This document shows positions 550 through 39,370 of a stretch of 39,370 bases of DNA, piece after piece. Source of the stretch: a virus. Numbering within the stretch: the stretch's first letter is position 1; each line of letters opens with the position of its first letter. The stretch lies in IMG/VR virus record IMGVR_UViG_3300011445_000013, positions 1 to 39,370 of that record. One strand, 5' to 3'. The translations under genes and the position numbers were made by a program. The notes under the pieces are model-generated. The model was not told the DNA's origin. It saw nothing but the letters and a program-made list of their open reading frames with translations, and made no database searches.

Positions 550-1608
550 TTAGACGAACCCTCTCCGTTTCCCCGCTGCCGGCGGTTTGGCATATCCGCT
601 CGGCTCCTGATCGGGCGTCAATTCGACAGTGGTGCCAGAATCCTCCGGCTCGGTCACCGCCACCGGCTTCTTTTTCGCTTCCGCCTCGGCAACCAGCCTG
701 GATTTAACCTCCTCCTGCAGCTCGGGTTCGGGCGTCGTATTCTTCGCCAGCATGACTTCCTCCCAGCTCGCCTCGCCGTTTTTCAGCGACGAATACACCC
801 CGCGCAGCTCCTTGATCTCGGCCGGCGACATGCGGTCGGCGGTGTGCCCGAGATAAGCGGCGATATCGGAGGGCGCGCAGCCCAGCGGCGCGAAAGCGTC
901 GAGCAGTTGCCGCTTGGCCGCGTCCGGGTCCTTGGCATCGGCCTTGCCCTGCGTCTCCTCGATATGGGCGCGCGCCTCGTCCATGATGTCCCGCGGCAGG
1001 AGGTGTTCGGTCAGTGTCCGCTCCGCCTTGGCGATTTGTGCGCGCTGCTTCACCAGCAGTTCGTCCTCGGTGGCCCGCACGATGTAGACCTTGTCGCCGC
1101 CCGAATTCTCGCGCTCGCCGAGGATCTCCCGGTTATCGGCGTAGCGCCGCTCGACCGTCTTTTCGACGACGATTTCGGTGCTCTCCGTACAGCAGGCTTC
1201 GGCGTCCAGCACCTGCACCCGGATCTTGCGGTACATGCTGTTTTCGAAGGTGACCGAGTTGTCGACGTGGATATTGCGATAGAGCGCCTTGGCCGTCCGG
1301 ATGAAGTGCACGCTCAACCCTTCGGCGTACTGCATCTTGCCTTCTTTTTTCCCCACCGGCTTGCGGTAGATCGCCACCGCGGCCAGCGTCGGACGGCTCG
1401 CCTCCTTCAGCAGTTGCGTGCGGAAATCCTCCTTGTCGCGCGGCCGGCGCAGCGCCATGACGAACCGGGCCTCAATGATCGCCCGCGCCTCGGCCGCCGC
1501 CGACTCCACCGCCGAATCGTCGCGTACGGCGATCGACGCCGAAGAATATCCCTGCGTCACGGTCTGCTGAATTTCGCCGGATTGCCGGCGGGCTAACTGA
1601 GCGTCCAT
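550..1608 (-). CDS. Conserved phage protein, probable recombination role (352 aa)
   Basis: A 352-aa soluble protein with a good ribosome site (AAGGAAAG) before its ATG. I recognise it as a widespread phage family: an AEARAIIEARFVMALRRPR segment (about residues 39-57), a KTVERR segment (about 150), YIVRATEDELLVKQ (about 173-186) and a C-terminal helical part containing YLGHTADRMSPAEIKELRGVY (about 260-280). That C-terminal pattern also occurs in phage proteins encoded beside recombination genes. Here the downstream genes are an SbcC-like ATPase and a DEDDh exonuclease, so a role in single-strand annealing or end processing is plausible. No RecT, Erf or Rad52 motif is directly visible and the function is inferred from context. 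Confidence 0.75.
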   Translation of the reverse strand: MDAQLARRQSGEIQQTVTQGYSSASIAVRDDSAVESAAAEARAIIEARFVMALRRPRDKEDFRTQLLKEASRPTLAAVAIYRKPVGKKEGKMQYAEGLSVHFIRTAKALYRNIHVDNSVTFENSMYRKIRVQVLDAEACCTESTEIVVEKTVERRYADNREILGERENSGGDKVYIVRATEDELLVKQRAQIAKAERTLTEHLLPRDIMDEARAHIEETQGKADAKDPDAAKRQLLDAFAPLGCAPSDIAAYLGHTADRMSPAEIKELRGVYSSLKNGEASWEEVMLAKNTTPEPELQEEVKSRLVAEAEAKKKPVAVTEPEDSGTTVELTPDQEPSGYAKPPAAGKRRGFV

Positions 1609-1633: not shown

Positions 1634-1795
1634 TTATTGGCGGGCCGCCTGTTCGCCGGCCAGAGCCCGCTCGGCGCGGTTGATCGCCGCGATGTAATCG
1701 GGATGCCGCTGGGAGAGATCCTGCGCGGCGGCGAGCAGTTCGGCGAGCGCGGCGAGCGTCTCGGGGGCGGTGGTTTCCGGCAGGCGATCGTTCAT
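1634..1795 (-). CDS. Small hypothetical protein (53 aa)
   Basis: The chosen ATG at 1795 overlaps the TGA of the upstream gene as ATGA, a translational-coupling arrangement used throughout this operon; longer readings only add a low-complexity shadow of that gene. The product is a short Ala/Leu-rich helical protein (MNDRLPETTAPETLAALAEL, then HPDYIAAINRAERAL) without membrane segment or metal motif. It lies 25 bp before the 352-aa gene. I do not recognise the family. Confidence 0.6.
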   Translation of the reverse strand: MNDRLPETTAPETLAALAELLAAAQDLSQRHPDYIAAINRAERALAGEQAARQ

Positions 1796-2100
1796 CCGAA
1801 TAACCTCTCGAACTCTTCCCGCGACAGTTGTTTCACCGGCTCCCGATTCGTCCGCTCGACGGGCCGGGCCGCTATCCGGGCGAGGGCCGCGGTCTTCGCT
1901 TCCCCGGCCTCCCGCACGATCTTTTTGAGCTGCGGAATATCGGCGTAGAACAGTGTCCTTGCGGCCGTCCTCGACGGCCTCCACCGGCGTTTGCGCGGCC
2001 ACACGTCGATCACGCCATTGATGCGGAGATGCGAGCCGCCATTGAACTCCTGAACCGTCCAGCTTTTCTCCGCCATGATCTGGTCATAGTTGTCTGGCAT
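1792..2100 (-). CDS. Hypothetical protein (102 aa)
   Basis: A basic 102-aa protein: N-terminal MPDNYDQIMAEKSWTVQEFN, a central Arg-rich stretch (WPRKRRWRPSR), and a C-terminal helix ending REPVKQLSREEFERLFG. The charge pattern is compatible with nucleic-acid or protein binding, but no known domain is visible. The start at 2100 overlaps the upstream gene by 17 bp and the stop overlaps the downstream ATG, so it belongs to the leftward operon. Confidence 0.6.
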   Translation of the reverse strand: MPDNYDQIMAEKSWTVQEFNGGSHLRINGVIDVWPRKRRWRPSRTAARTLFYADIPQLKKIVREAGEAKTAALARIAARPVERTNREPVKQLSREEFERLFG

Positions 2101-2542
2101 CGAATCCCTCCGCCAACTTCATGACCCATGCCTCGGCGTGCCCCGTCCATACCCGACATCCGGTGTCCTCCGCGATACCGTTGGCCACCAGAAATGCCGT
2201 CATCGGCTCGTTCTCAGTCCACGTTTTGACAAGAATTTCCCCTTCGCTTAGTTCGGCCTCGGGGAGATTCACGGTGATCTTTGCCACCGGCCCCGCCAGG
2301 CGGTCGTCGATCAACTCCAGGGCGAGCCGGCCGCCGGCATAGAATCCCTGTCGGATGTGGACGATGTATGTCTTGCCGAAGCAGGTGTACTTGTAGGTCT
2401 TGCGTGGTGACTCTACAGGTTCAAAATCGTCTTCGCGTTCGGGCTCACACGCGTGAATGCAGTCGTCGGCGTTCGAATCGAGCCATACATCCTCACCATC
2501 GCAGTAACACGCCTGTTCACAATTCGGGCACGAATGCGCCAT
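2084..2542 (-). CDS. Hypothetical protein with N-terminal Cys cluster (152 aa)
   Basis: A 152-aa acidic protein. The N terminus MAHSCPNCEQACYC carries CxxC plus further Cys residues (C5, C8, C12, C14, with C28 and C32 nearby), suggesting one small zinc site. A beta-rich body follows (KYTCFGKTYIVHIRQGFYAG). The ATG at 2542 has a strong ribosome site (GGGGAG, 7 nt spacing). It lies 11 bp after the Acb2-like gene. The family is not recognised. Confidence 0.7.
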   Translation of the reverse strand: MAHSCPNCEQACYCDGEDVWLDSNADDCIHACEPEREDDFEPVESPRKTYKYTCFGKTYIVHIRQGFYAGGRLALELIDDRLAGPVAKITVNLPEAELSEGEILVKTWTENEPMTAFLVANGIAEDTGCRVWTGHAEAWVMKLAEGFDARQL

Positions 2543-2553
2543 AGAAAACTCCC

Positions 2554-2787
2554 CTACCGCTTAAATTTGACTTCCTCGCCCTCTTCGGCGACCAGCCCCA
2601 GATAGGCCCAGATCCGCGACTCCTCCAGCTTGGTGAAGGCGTGACTCAACTCCCGGCTGGGCGGGCAAGCCTTCCTTAACACCGACTCCAATCGCAGGTA
2701 CGCCTCATCAATCGGTTCCCGCTGCGCCGGGGTAACCGCCTCCGTGCCGGGGATAACCCGCTCAAACCGCGCCGGTTTACTGGACAT
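2554..2787 (-). CDS. Acb2/Tad1-like cyclic-nucleotide sponge (anti-CBASS/anti-Thoeris candidate, 77 aa)
   Basis: A 77-aa helical protein. From memory of the family, Acb2/Tad1 (DUF7681-type) proteins are short helical hairpins whose second helix carries a pattern like R-E-x-S-x-A-x-T-K-L-E-E-x-x-x-W-A; residues 44-61 here read SRELSHAFTKLEESRIWA, a close fit. Those proteins assemble into hexamers that trap CBASS cyclic oligonucleotides or Thoeris signals and so blunt host abortive defence. The start at 2787 was preferred because GAGG lies a few bases upstream; an upstream reading (to 2835) would add 16 Arg/Pro-rich residues. Being first in the leftward operon would give early expression, as an anti-defence protein needs. 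Identification rests on pattern recognition only. Confidence 0.6.
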   Translation of the reverse strand: MSSKPARFERVIPGTEAVTPAQREPIDEAYLRLESVLRKACPPSRELSHAFTKLEESRIWAYLGLVAEEGEEVKFKR

Positions 2788-3180
2788 GAAACCTCGCTTC
2801 CCCGGCTCCATTGCGGCGCCAGGCCTTCGATGCAACGTCGGTCATACCCCGCGCGAAAAAACGAGCCCCTTCGTTCGCGGGTTACTTATGCCTGGTAATG
2901 TGTTGGGGTTTGCGCCCGTAATTGGTGCCGGCCGGTGTGCAACGTCGCTGCGAGCGCACCGGACTAAACGCCTCTTACTGGGATTGCCGCACAAGATTCG
3001 CGGCTGGGAAGGGGGAATTACAGGGGTAACTCTCGAACGCGGGATCGGGGAAGCGGTGTTTCATGGATTCTCTGCCCATCGGCCTACCTCGTCTGCCTGT
3101 AACCGGTCCCATCCTGGAACCGGCAAAAAAAACGGAAGGCCGAGCCCTCCGCCGCCGCCTCGGTGGTTCCGGGCGGCGCT
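2788..3180. other. Gene-free stretch, probable early leftward promoter/leader region
   Basis: No convincing gene is seen in these 393 bases. They lie upstream of the first gene of the leftward operon and downstream of the leftward ribbon-helix-helix gene, so the early promoter should be here or be shared with that gene. An imperfect hairpin (CCGGTCCC with GGAACCGG, about 3101-3124) is followed on the + strand by eight A residues and so does not make a normal terminator in either direction. No clear -35/-10 pair stands out. Confidence 0.35.
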
Positions 3181-3381
3181 CTACGTACTGCGTTGTTTAC
3201 TTTTGTTTGAACCGGCCGCCTGGGCGTCAACCCAGTTTTGAATCGACTCGATCAAGGCGGCTTTCGCTGTCGTCCCTCTGCCCACGGCTTTGGATCGAAA
3301 CTCAAGCCAAAGTGCGGTAGGCACATCAATGGTCGTGACGGTAATTGGGCGCGACTCTACCTGTGCTACTGTTCCATTCAT
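3181..3381 (-). CDS. Ribbon-helix-helix-like regulator (66 aa)
   Basis: A 66-aa protein with the size and pattern of an Arc/CopG ribbon-helix-helix protein: a strand (about residues 12-18, ITVTTIDVP), helix (TALWLEFRSKAV), turn (GRGTT) and helix (AKAALIESIQNWV). Such proteins dimerise and bind short palindromic operators, often their own. The gene is divergent from the rightward 162-aa gene with 28 bp between the start codons; that gap holds an inverted repeat (GGAG, 7-nt loop, CTCC). With no CI/Cro-type gene recognised, this is a leading candidate for the phage regulator. The assignment is from pattern only. Confidence 0.55.
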   Translation of the reverse strand: MNGTVAQVESRPITVTTIDVPTALWLEFRSKAVGRGTTAKAALIESIQNWVDAQAAGSNKSKQRST

Positions 3382-5778: not shown

Positions 5779-6243
5779 TTATGCCAACTCGCTTTGTTTT
5801 GTTGGAGTTGCGTTAATTTCGACGGTATTTATATCGCTCTCGGCGACCCGTCGAAGCGCGTCCAGATGCAGCGTCCCGATGTTGATCTGTACGCCATGTT
5901 TCTGCTGCTGAGCGAACTGCTCACGGTCGTAGACACCGGCGAGCCACTGCCGTGTCTCTACTTGCAGCCGCGCTTTTGACGTCCCTGTTTCGCTCGTTTT
6001 ATCGGCGATTTCCAGGGCTCTTTCCGCGTGCGCGGCCGCGCTTGCCGCACGCGCGGAGTAGTAGAGCGCCTTGCGCTCCGTGTCGTAATTAAGCCAATCG
6101 GCCAAAACGTTGCGGGTGCAGCCCAAGTCTTCGGCAATGCTCCACATGGTATCGCCGTTAGCGACTCTACCGAGGACCCAATCGAGGCCGCCGCGGTCTT
6201 GGAGAGCGGCGAGCATGGCGCGTTTGATGGGATGGCCTGCCAT
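5779..6243 (-). CDS. terS: Terminase small subunit-like protein (154 aa)
   Basis: A 154-aa protein with a phage small-terminase-type fold: an N-terminal helix-turn-helix (about residues 5-45: IKRAMLAALQ, then NGDTMWSIAEDLGCTRNVLADWL), a helical oligomerisation region (ALYYSARAASAAAHAERALE) and the family's RLQVETRQWLAGVYDREQF segment (about 92-112). These subunits recognise the packaging site and regulate the large terminase. MAGHPIK (ATG at 6243) is preferred over a reading extended 48 codons. Oddly, the gene is read leftward, away from terL 1.4 kb to the right, so the two are not co-transcribed. The packaging site may lie in or next to this gene. Confidence 0.7.
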   Translation of the reverse strand: MAGHPIKRAMLAALQDRGGLDWVLGRVANGDTMWSIAEDLGCTRNVLADWLNYDTERKALYYSARAASAAAHAERALEIADKTSETGTSKARLQVETRQWLAGVYDREQFAQQQKHGVQINIGTLHLDALRRVAESDINTVEINATPTKQSELA

Positions 6244-6866
6244 GTCAACGGGATAGCACAGGTAGTGGGAACTATACAAGCGGAGGAGTTGGATTGGCAG
6301 CCTCCCCTCCCCAGAGTGCTGTTGACGAATCAGCCTGAGCGCGGACGCACCTCCGGTAATGGGGAGTGTGAAACCGGGTCGAATCAATCCACGCTATTCG
6401 CCAGCGGTCCCGATCCTATCGCCTGGTGCCAGGTGCGAGGTGGACTTGTTGCCTTTGGATGTAATCGACTGCAACCGGATTGCTAGGCGTTCGGCTTTGT
6501 TGCTGCCCTACTGGCCGGGGTTGGGATCGCCACCCTTTTCGCTTGCCGGTCCCGTGGAAGCCGCCGGAGCAAGTTGGCTGAAGTCCGTCTTCAGGTCCGC
6601 TCCCTCTTTCTCTCGCGATGTTAGCGCTCCACGACGGTTTGATCCGCGCCAGATTGCACAGAAAGCTCGTCCTGTTCAGCGGGACGAAACCGTGGAGTCC
6701 TGCCTGGGAAGGCGTACAACGGAGATCCACGGGACAAGCGGGCCGGGTACCACTGAGGCGCGGTGTGCCGGGCTGCTGGTGCGTTCTGTGCCTCTGAAAC
6801 GTCACGCAGTATTTTTACCATGGTTGGCGGTGGATGGGAAGAGGGAAAAGCAGAAAAGTAAGAATG
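6244..6866. other. Gene-free region, possible pac/cos site
   Basis: Over 600 bases without a believable gene: frames on both strands give low-complexity, Arg/Pro/Ser-rich translations with no ribosome sites. A small palindrome (CCTGGTGCCAGG, 6422-6433) and a CGTCC/GGACG stem near 6669-6687 are visible. Packaging recognition sites usually lie in or beside terS, so this is the best place for one. Confidence 0.4.
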
Positions 6867-7602: not shown

Positions 7603-9015
7603 ATGAGCGTTGCCGACGAACCCGCCCTGGTCGTTTTTTTGCGGCTCTACCGGCGCGATCCGTGCCTGTTCGTGCAGGAAGTGCTGGGCGCCATACCGGA
7701 TCCGGCGCAGGCCGATGTATTGAATGCGGTGGCTTCGGGGGAGAGAAGGATTTCGGTAAGAAGCGGCCATGGGGTGGGGAAGAGCACGGTGGCGAGCTGG
7801 CTGATGATCTGGTTTCTGATCACGAAGTTTCCCTCGAAGACCGTAGTCACCGCGCCGACGACGGCGCAGTTGTTCGATGCCTTGTTCGCCGAGTTGAAGC
7901 GTTGGCTGGGGAAGTTGCCGCTGCCGTTGCAGGAGCTGCTGGAGGTGAAGGCGGAAAGGATTGAGTTGAAAGCGGCGCCCGCGGAGGGGTTTATCACGGC
8001 CCGGACGAGCCGGGCCGAGCAACCGGAGGCGTTGCAGGGCGTACATAGCGAGCATGTGCTGCTGATCGCCGACGAGGCCTCGGGGGTGCCCGAGAGCGTG
8101 TTCGAAGCGGCGAGCGGGAGTATGAGCGGGCATCACGCGGTGACGCTGTTGCTGGGCAATCCGGTCCGGTCGAGCGGTTTTTTTTATGACACGCACAACA
8201 AGTTGAGCCCGCATTGGAAGACGTTCGTGGTGCCCTGCCATGCTTCGCCGCGGGTGAGCAAAGAGTATATCGAGGAGATGGCGACCCGCTATGGGGTGGA
8301 TTCCAATGCCTACCGGATCCGGGTGCTGGGGGAGTTTCCGCGGGCCGATGACGATACGTTGATCCCAATGGAGTTAATTGAACTGGCGACGACCCGTGAC
8401 GTGTTGCCGGTAGCGGGGGCGCCGCTGGTCTGGGGGTTGGATATCGCGCGGTACGGGCCCGATAGTACAGTGCTGCTGCAAAGAAGGGGGAATGCGGTGA
8501 CGTCCATTACCAGGTGGAGCCGGACGGACACGATGGAGACGGTGGGGCGGGTGAAGCTGGCCTGGGACACGTTGTTGCCGGGGGAGCGGCCGGAAGAGAT
8601 ACTGGCCGATGTGATCGGGATCGGGGCCGGGGTGGTGGACCGGCTGCGGGAGTTGCGGTTGCCGGTGAGGGGGGTGAATGTAGGGGAAGCGCCGAGTATT
8701 AAGGGCGGGCATCACAATTTGCGGGCCGAGCTGTGGACGGAGATGAAGGCCTGGTTTGAAAGAAGGGATTGCCGGATCCCGGCGAACGATTATTTGATCA
8801 GCGAACTGGCGGCCTGCAAATTTCATATCACCAGTTGCGGGAAAATTCAGATCGAATCGAAGGACGATGCGCGGCGCCGGGGACTCCCCTCGCCGGACAC
8901 CGCCGATGCGCTGATGCTGACGTTCGCGGCCACGGCGGCGACGGCCATTCACGGGTGGTCGCATACCTCCCCGTGGGCCAAGCCGTTGAAGCGGAATCAG
9001 TTAGGGATTGTCTAG
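7603..9015 (+). CDS. terL: Terminase large subunit (470 aa)
   Basis: The DNA-packaging motor: an ATPase that pumps DNA through the portal and a nuclease that cuts it. The N-terminal ATPase has Walker A SGHGVGKST (residues 54-62), Walker B VLLIADE (152-158) and a coupling motif TLLLGNP (181-187). The C-terminal RNase H-like nuclease has acidic sites at D280 (GLDIARYG), D336 (ADVIGIG) and D432/D435 (SPDTADAL). Length and motif order are those of a full-length large terminase. The ATG at 7603 starts directly after the promoter-like box, without a ribosome site. It opens the rightward late operon; the small subunit lies apart on the other strand. Confidence 0.95.
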   Translation: MSVADEPALVVFLRLYRRDPCLFVQEVLGAIPDPAQADVLNAVASGERRISVRSGHGVGKSTVASWLMIWFLITKFPSKTVVTAPTTAQLFDALFAELKRWLGKLPLPLQELLEVKAERIELKAAPAEGFITARTSRAEQPEALQGVHSEHVLLIADEASGVPESVFEAASGSMSGHHAVTLLLGNPVRSSGFFYDTHNKLSPHWKTFVVPCHASPRVSKEYIEEMATRYGVDSNAYRIRVLGEFPRADDDTLIPMELIELATTRDVLPVAGAPLVWGLDIARYGPDSTVLLQRRGNAVTSITRWSRTDTMETVGRVKLAWDTLLPGERPEEILADVIGIGAGVVDRLRELRLPVRGVNVGEAPSIKGGHHNLRAELWTEMKAWFERRDCRIPANDYLISELAACKFHITSCGKIQIESKDDARRRGLPSPDTADALMLTFAATAATAIHGWSHTSPWAKPLKRNQLGIV

Positions 9016-37793: not shown

Positions 37794-39185
37794 TTATTCC
37801 CCTCCGGCGGCGGCGTTCGGATCGATGTCCAGTTGCGGCGCATCGTCGACACGCGCCGCGATGATCTGAAACCCGCTGGCCGCGCAGGCCGCTTTGAAGT
37901 CCGCCCAATGCGCGCTATCGAGCGCCTCGGTATTATCGAGCACCATAAGACCCAGCTCGCCGGCGCCCTGGGCGGCGATCCGCAGGGCCAGCTCGTACTG
38001 CCGCTGCGTGTTGACCGCGTCGAACGGGATCGGCGCTTCGAAGCCTTCGGGCTGGTACATCACCTCGCCGTCCTGAGTGGAGAGCCCCGGGATCGGCAGC
38101 GACCGCAGGGCCTTCTCTTTCGCCGCGTCGATTGCCTCGATCGCCGCCGAATAGACATCCGCCTCGGCCTGGGCGGATTTCAGATCCTGCTGATACTGCT
38201 TGATGGTCGCGGCGCTTTGGGCTTGCTGGGCAAAGTGGCGGGCCTTCTCCCGGGCCACGGAAACCTGCGCGGATGCGCCGGAGACCGCCTCCCGGGCCGA
38301 CTCTATCTCGGCGTCCAGAGAATGGTAGAGCGTGTGGCGCGCGGCCTTGCCCTGGTCGTGCACCACCGTTCGGCGTTTGGCGGCCTCGACGCGGATCTTG
38401 TCAATCTCGACTGCCTCCCAGCGGGATACCTCGGCCACGTCGGCGGCCAGAGCTTTATCAAAGTCGGCCACGGCCGTGTCGCGGTTCTGCTCGATCTCCT
38501 TGAGCGCCGCCGTCTGCTCTTCCAACCCGTCGAGGGCCTCCCGCACCACCGCGTCGGCGTCTCCCTCCGGCTTCCAGTCCCCGGGAAGCGTTTTCCGCAG
38601 CGCGTCGATACCGCCCTCCTGGATCTTGATCGACTTATTGACCGCGGCGCGGTCGTCGTAGAGGCGCTTGCGCAGGCCGTTCAAGGCGGCGATATCGAAC
38701 TGACTACCGCTGATCAGCCGCGCCACCTGTGGAGCCAGGCGCTTCTGATCGCACGCCGCGACAATCTGCTCGCGCGTTACCGCCACCGGCATGACTTTCG
38801 ATAGGTAGTCGGCCCGCTCTTTATGCGAGGCGGCGACGAACGCCAGCGGATCGAAGGCGAAGCCCTTGGCCAGGGTGGCGATGAAAGTGGCCGGAGCGGG
38901 GATAACCTCGCCGGCCGCATTCTTCACCACCGTCGTCGCGCTCTTCGGCGTGATGGTCTTCTCGATCGTGGTGCCATCGTCGAGCGTCAAGAGGACTACG
39001 CCCTTCTTGGCGCCCTGGCGGATCATGGAGGCGTCATGCCCGCCCTCGAAAGGCTCCCTGACAGCGTCCAGTAAGGAAGTCTTGCCGCTACCATTGGGGC
39101 CACGCGCGACGGTCAAAGCGCCGGCGCGAAACTGCGCATGCTCGATGCCGCGAATATTTTCGATAGATACTGATTTCAACTGCAT
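37794..39185 (-). CDS. SbcC/RecF-type ATPase (463 aa)
   Basis: An SMC-like ATPase: IENIRGIEHAQFRAGALTVA, Walker A GPNGSGKTS (29-37), a long coiled coil (about 170-350), then NTQRQYELALRIAAQGAGEL and Walker B LGLMVLDNTE (411-420). It is a short, phage-type relative of SbcC/Rad50/RecF proteins. It may pair with the nearby exonuclease or 352-aa protein in recombination. It starts at ATG 39185, overlapping the HNH-like stop by 10 bp. Confidence 0.88.
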   Translation of the reverse strand: MQLKSVSIENIRGIEHAQFRAGALTVARGPNGSGKTSLLDAVREPFEGGHDASMIRQGAKKGVVLLTLDDGTTIEKTITPKSATTVVKNAAGEVIPAPATFIATLAKGFAFDPLAFVAASHKERADYLSKVMPVAVTREQIVAACDQKRLAPQVARLISGSQFDIAALNGLRKRLYDDRAAVNKSIKIQEGGIDALRKTLPGDWKPEGDADAVVREALDGLEEQTAALKEIEQNRDTAVADFDKALAADVAEVSRWEAVEIDKIRVEAAKRRTVVHDQGKAARHTLYHSLDAEIESAREAVSGASAQVSVAREKARHFAQQAQSAATIKQYQQDLKSAQAEADVYSAAIEAIDAAKEKALRSLPIPGLSTQDGEVMYQPEGFEAPIPFDAVNTQRQYELALRIAAQGAGELGLMVLDNTEALDSAHWADFKAACAASGFQIIAARVDDAPQLDIDPNAAAGGE

Positions 39186-39370
39186 CTAAGACTCCTCTTT
39201 CGCGTCATTATTTCGGTCGCGGTCCACCCACGAGATAGCCTTGCGTGCAAGGTTTTCGCACTGAATCCAGTCGCTTCACTGCATTCCGCGAGGGTTAATC
39301 GCGTCCCGTTATACTCAATAACCACAATGTGGGTTTTCGTCCGCCGTCGAACGGTCTTAACTGTGAGCGC
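39176..39370 (-). CDS. HNH-like protein, 3' part (repeats the left-end gene)
   Basis: Codons for the C-terminal 64 residues of the HNH-like gene; the first 41 lie in the repeated 123 bases. The unique last 23 residues read HARLSRGWTATEIMTRKRSL and RCS. The TGA at 39176 overlaps the ATPase start. Together with 1-549 the gene is 206 codons. Confidence 0.75.
   Translation of the reverse strand, partial: ALTVKTVRRRTKTHIVVIEYNGTRLTLAECSEATGFSAKTLHARLSRGWTATEIMTRKRSLRCS
39248..39370. repeat. Terminal direct repeat (right copy)
   Basis: Identical to 1-123; marks the circular join. Confidence 0.95.

Follow-up and report, generated by a model that had tools for sequence, protein, structure and literature searches.

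The 77-residue protein encoded at positions 2554–2787 of an uncultured phage genome belongs, judged by its sequence, to the Acb2/Tad1 hairpin superfamily as a remote but true member, homologous to phage Acb2. The family is already known, its phage relatives are widespread and the family assignment by itself is ordinary; the protein is a divergent newcomer in it. On the reading that we favour, and hold to be fairly probable, it is a divergent hairpin member that would form a hexameric nucleotide sponge, no longer has the dinucleotide pocket and may prefer cyclic trinucleotides.

The window (the whole stretch of DNA analysed, 39,370 bases) is a virus record with a 123-base direct terminal repeat (positions 1–123 and 39248–39370), which suggests a complete, circular genome of ~39.2 kb (about 39,247 bases). 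It encodes an SU10-type portal, an integrase, a ParB-domain protein and a replication initiator, and its large terminase (7603–9015, plus strand) has relatives in uncultured spring phages and in Sinorhizobium phage phiM5. The source is an uncultured temperate phage. An HNH endonuclease gene is interrupted by the left end of the record and resumes at the right end. A small terminase-like gene (5779–6387, minus strand; Sf6 type, PF20901, E = 9.7e-13) is encoded on the strand opposite to that of the large terminase and points away from it. The record also carries a gene for a 463-residue SbcC-like/OLD-like ATPase (37794–39185, minus strand; phrog_1499, E = 2e-51), the N terminus of which weakly matches the GajA, PtuA and LmuB ATPases in PADLOC.

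The gene is an ATG-started reading frame on the minus strand, with the ATG at 2787 and the stop codon ending at 2554; its translation is MSSKPARFERVIPGTEAVTPAQREPIDEAYLRLESVLRKACPPSRELSHAFTKLEESRIWAYLGLVAEEGEEVKFKR. A Shine–Dalgarno-like GCGAGG stands immediately upstream of the ATG, and the GC content by codon position (0.62/0.46/0.78) resembles that of the neighbouring genes. The gene, the segments of its product and its surroundings are as follows.

550–1608, minus strand: 352-residue gene, phrog_3657 match (unknown function)
1792–2100, minus strand: 102-residue gene, overlapping the 152-residue gene by 17 bases; no family match
2084–2542, minus strand: next leftward gene, 152 residues; weak DUF4313 match by Pfam profile (E = 1.7e-4, below the Pfam cut-off)
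2554–2787, stop codon included, minus strand: 77-residue Acb2/Tad1-hairpin protein (PF24729, phrog_1454, family profile)
2584–2655, minus strand: helix 2 with its N-cap motif, residues 45–68 (R45-E46-L-S-H-A50-F-T52-K-L-E-E-S57-R-I-W60-A61); AlphaFold2, family-conserved columns
2668–2730, minus strand: helix 1, residues 20–40; AlphaFold2, block pLDDT 94–97
2731–2787, minus strand: N-terminal segment, residues 1–19, with RF kept and the family Y-H-x-P replaced by R-V-I-P (column comparison)
3131–3153, minus strand: terminator-like stem and T-run between the ribbon-helix-helix gene and the 77-residue gene; sites of this type are no commoner than in shuffles
3181–3381, minus strand: Arc-like ribbon-helix-helix gene (phrog_6506, E = 0.0039)

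The 152-residue gene begins 11 bases beyond the stop of the 77-residue gene, and the N terminus of its product is cysteine-rich (CPNCEQACYC). Used as queries, the 352-residue and 102-residue neighbours retrieved no related viral loci. Leftward genes continue through both record ends, so that the 77-residue gene heads a long leftward run. The earlier note had placed it first in an early leftward operon, which is reasonable but not proven: the ribbon-helix-helix gene stands 393 bp upstream on this strand, the terminator-like stem separating the two.

Two independent profile libraries place the protein in the hairpin family. PF24729 (the Acb2/Tad1 hairpin) matches it with E = 3.1e-5 and 24.5 bits, 2.5 below the curated Pfam cut-off of 27 bits, and its nearest relatives exceed that cut-off; phrog_1454, which also matches six other hairpin-family proteins, does so with E = 6.9e-8. 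The lack of any profile match, named earlier as grounds for giving up the family call, is thus not what was found. Searches with the single sequence returned no IMG/VR relative and no meaningful match in the PDB, PADLOC gave no match for the protein, and the best phage tblastn match had E = 0.01. The tblastn-found phage relatives that were checked (Coog gp45, Barebow gp4 and Heath HEATH_54) all score above the PF24729 cut-off and match phrog_1454.

Scans from a four-sequence alignment gathered relatives at 79 viral and 21 genome loci. A family profile of 92 relatives, from which the protein itself was left out, scored it at 51.8 bits, as against 17.2 bits for the best of 20,000 shuffles, and detected only this frame among the open reading frames of the window. 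The conservation of S-R-E-x-S-x-A-x-T among the collected relatives is partly built in, because that pattern had been used to find them; for this reason, residues 44–53 were masked, and the protein still scored 11.2 bits, compared with 8.0 bits for the best of 20,000 shuffles. When the protein was included in the profile, PDB entry 9ptq ('Acb2 homolog 43', six chains) was matched with E = 4.6e-10 and Tad1 with E = 6e-4. The profile scores and the masked test together indicate that the homology is real, with its weight in helix 2. A chance resemblance, in which this is an unrelated short helical protein, could draw on the Pfam match below the cut-off and on the weak structure matches described below; however, none of the 20,000 shuffles comes near, the two libraries agree and the motif-masked score still exceeds every shuffle, and we regard this explanation as strongly disfavoured and exceedingly improbable.

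The AlphaFold2 model (60 sequences; mean pLDDT 88.6) is a two-helix hairpin with the two long antiparallel helices of the superfamily layout (residues 20–40 and 45–68), confirming the earlier description of a helical 77-residue frame carrying the motif SRELSHAFTKLEESRIWA. In a Foldseek comparison of the monomer with viral models, the top named matches were mostly 'Acb2/Tad1 hairpin domain-containing protein', with weak E-values (best 0.11). Among solved structures, the cGAMP complex of T4 Vs.4 (Z 4.8, rmsd 3.0, 60 residues, 22% identity) and the cA3 complex of CbTad1 (Z 4.3) did not rank above unrelated hairpins, and fold comparison by itself does not separate the protein from such hairpins. 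Profile, relatives and predicted fold together bear out the family call.

Both T4 Vs.4 (PDB 7uq2) and PaP2 gp26 have the PF24729 hairpin, as does the 77-residue protein, with the assembly positions mostly kept. T4 Acb2 and the 77-residue protein have in common an A-x-T-K-L-x-E core and a W-A pair at the same place, whereas T4 and PaP2 Acb2 (88–93 aa) carry a long inter-helix insert that is missing here. The T4 Vs.4 hexamer requires L29, A66, A73 and A77, with a contribution from F33 (PMC10097602). In the order L29, F33, A66, A73 and A77, these align to L33, L37, A50, S57 and A61, with three identities, one F-to-L and one A-to-S change, and T4 T68 aligns to T52. Because these positions are kept or only mildly changed, we infer that the protein would form a hexamer.

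The ligand pocket tells a different story. In T4 Acb2, cGAMP contacts Y8, H11, K23, R79 and F82, and the Y8A and F82A substitutions lower cGAMP binding more than 5-fold and more than 25-fold, respectively (PMC10097602). These five contacts align to R10, P13, D27, L63 and V66, all five of them changed, in an alignment that is uncertain in its gapped N-terminal part. Y11 and K26 of PaP2 Acb2 (gp26), which we take to be dinucleotide-site residues, align to the same R10 and D27. By contrast, PaP2 R67, presumably the trinucleotide-site arginine, aligns to R45 in an SRE motif that Tad1 has at the same place. Position 10 is tyrosine in 62 of the 92 relatives and position 27 arginine in 80 of them; ten (including L047, a fragment) likewise have neither the aromatic nor the basic residue, six of these ten being near-identical Benedictvirus proteins. 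As far as the alignments reach, the 77-residue protein is without the residues known to grip cyclic dinucleotides, and because they are absent its ligand, if any, is probably a different one.

An ordinary Acb2, that is, a broad cyclic-dinucleotide (and trinucleotide) sponge in which different residues make the same pocket, would share the superfamily and the hairpin seen here; the signals bound by sponge proteins are diverse (PMC12043709), and the necessary charge could come from R10, R58 or the basic residues of the C-terminal tail (K74, K76 and R77). However, the replacement of T4 Y8/K23 and PaP2 Y11/K26 by R10/D27 removes an aromatic residue and a positive charge and adds a negative one, and R79 and F82 have become L63 and V66. 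We therefore consider this explanation improbable.

Comparison with the wider family sharpens the picture of what is kept and what is lost. The canonical pattern of phrog_1454 and the 92 relatives is Y-H-x-P ... I-R ... S-R-E-K-S-L-A-x-T-K-L-E-E-A-x-M-W-A-N-A-x-I-A-R-N. The 77-residue protein resembles these proteins in length, hairpin layout and S-R-E-x-S-x-A-x-T-K-L-E-E-x(3)-W-A, and differs from them in lacking Y-H-x-P, the arginine at position 27, N62 and the C-terminal I-A-R-N; its best identity with any of the 92 is 44% over 64 columns. The absence of Y-H-x-P, of R27 and of the C-terminal N-A-x-I-A-R counts against our preferred reading. PDB 9ptq (76 aa, six chains) is like it in length and in its G-R-E-K-S and T-K-L-E-E core, and also deviates from the canonical N- and C-terminal motifs, but retains a lysine at the site of D27. 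Mycobacterium phage Coog gp45, Curtobacterium phage Barebow gp4 and the Bifidobacterium MAG locus L100, all from actinobacterial phages or prophages, likewise have no aromatic residue at position 10 and no basic one at position 27. A tree groups the 77-residue protein with Coog and L100, a placement that its long branches make unsafe. Barebow gp4 (L002, 2483–2752), annotated as a 'cyclic nucleotide sequestering protein', is an Acb2-hairpin gene whose position between portal and capsid genes, in an 18-kb phage, is odd for an early counter-defence gene. Paenibacillus phage Heath HEATH_54 (L004, 1456–1671) is annotated as a 'putative phosphomannomutase', yet is a clear PF24729 hairpin (86 bits), so that the public annotation is probably wrong.

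That related pocket-poor proteins occur in odd places, such as Barebow gp4, would suit a hairpin member that has been repurposed (for example, as an adaptor or regulator that acts as an oligomer) or a sponge in decay that binds no nucleotide. This reading would also fit the observation that the helix-2 core is the only well-kept part of the protein and the reports that phage T2 has a mutation probably disrupting the Acb2 dinucleotide site and PaMx41 a premature stop (PMC12657218). The intact frame, coding-like composition and ribosome site argue against it, as does the full retention of the S-R-E-x-S-x-A-x-T core, which a decaying gene need not show. We judge such a fate unlikely, though a more serious contender than the broad sponge.

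Tad1 (CbTad1, PDB 7uav/8kbf) resembles the 77-residue protein in its helix-2 motif, SRE...EEA.MW. Tad1 proteins, ~125 aa long, have an N-terminal antiparallel β-sheet domain (PMC12043709), whereas the AlphaFold2 model here contains no strands. Since the β-sheet domain is absent, gcADPR binding in the manner of Tad1 finds no support. The title 'anti-CBASS/anti-Thoeris sponge' given in the earlier note thus stands as to family and outruns the evidence as to function, with the T4 dinucleotide contacts substituted and the Tad1 domain missing: the protein is not a Tad1, nor is an anti-CBASS role proven for it. The further suggestion of the earlier note, that the host lineage faces cyclic-nucleotide immune systems, likewise finds no support.

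On our preferred reading, a divergent sponge without the dinucleotide pocket, the hairpins would assemble into a hexamer like those of T4 and Pseudomonas Acb2. Early in infection, the hexamer would capture a nucleotide alarm signal and thereby keep the suicide effectors of the host off. The likeliest ligand class would be cyclic trinucleotides, bound at the three-fold axis, rather than cGAMP-type dinucleotides or gcADPR, because the protein has lost the dinucleotide-pocket residues but retains the SRE arginine that it has in common with PaP2 Acb2 (R67) and Tad1.

Phages with a sponge that binds cyclic dinucleotides are penalized by the Panoptes system (PMC12657218), and this cost is one reason why a phage might lose that pocket. 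We tentatively raise the possibility, which we would not call probable, of a recurrent lineage of Acb2-fold sponges (the 77-residue protein and those of Benedictvirus phages, Barebow and a Bifidobacterium prophage) that has dispensed with the dinucleotide pocket while retaining the hexamer and the trinucleotide arginine; such proteins might block trinucleotide CBASS without tripping guards that use decoy dinucleotides, such as Panoptes, or might bind an undescribed signal. Sponges determine whether a phage overcomes nucleotide-based immunity, and a natural member with its dinucleotide contacts replaced and its oligomer core kept lends itself to testing whether Acb2 is tuned by phages to avoid decoy dinucleotides.
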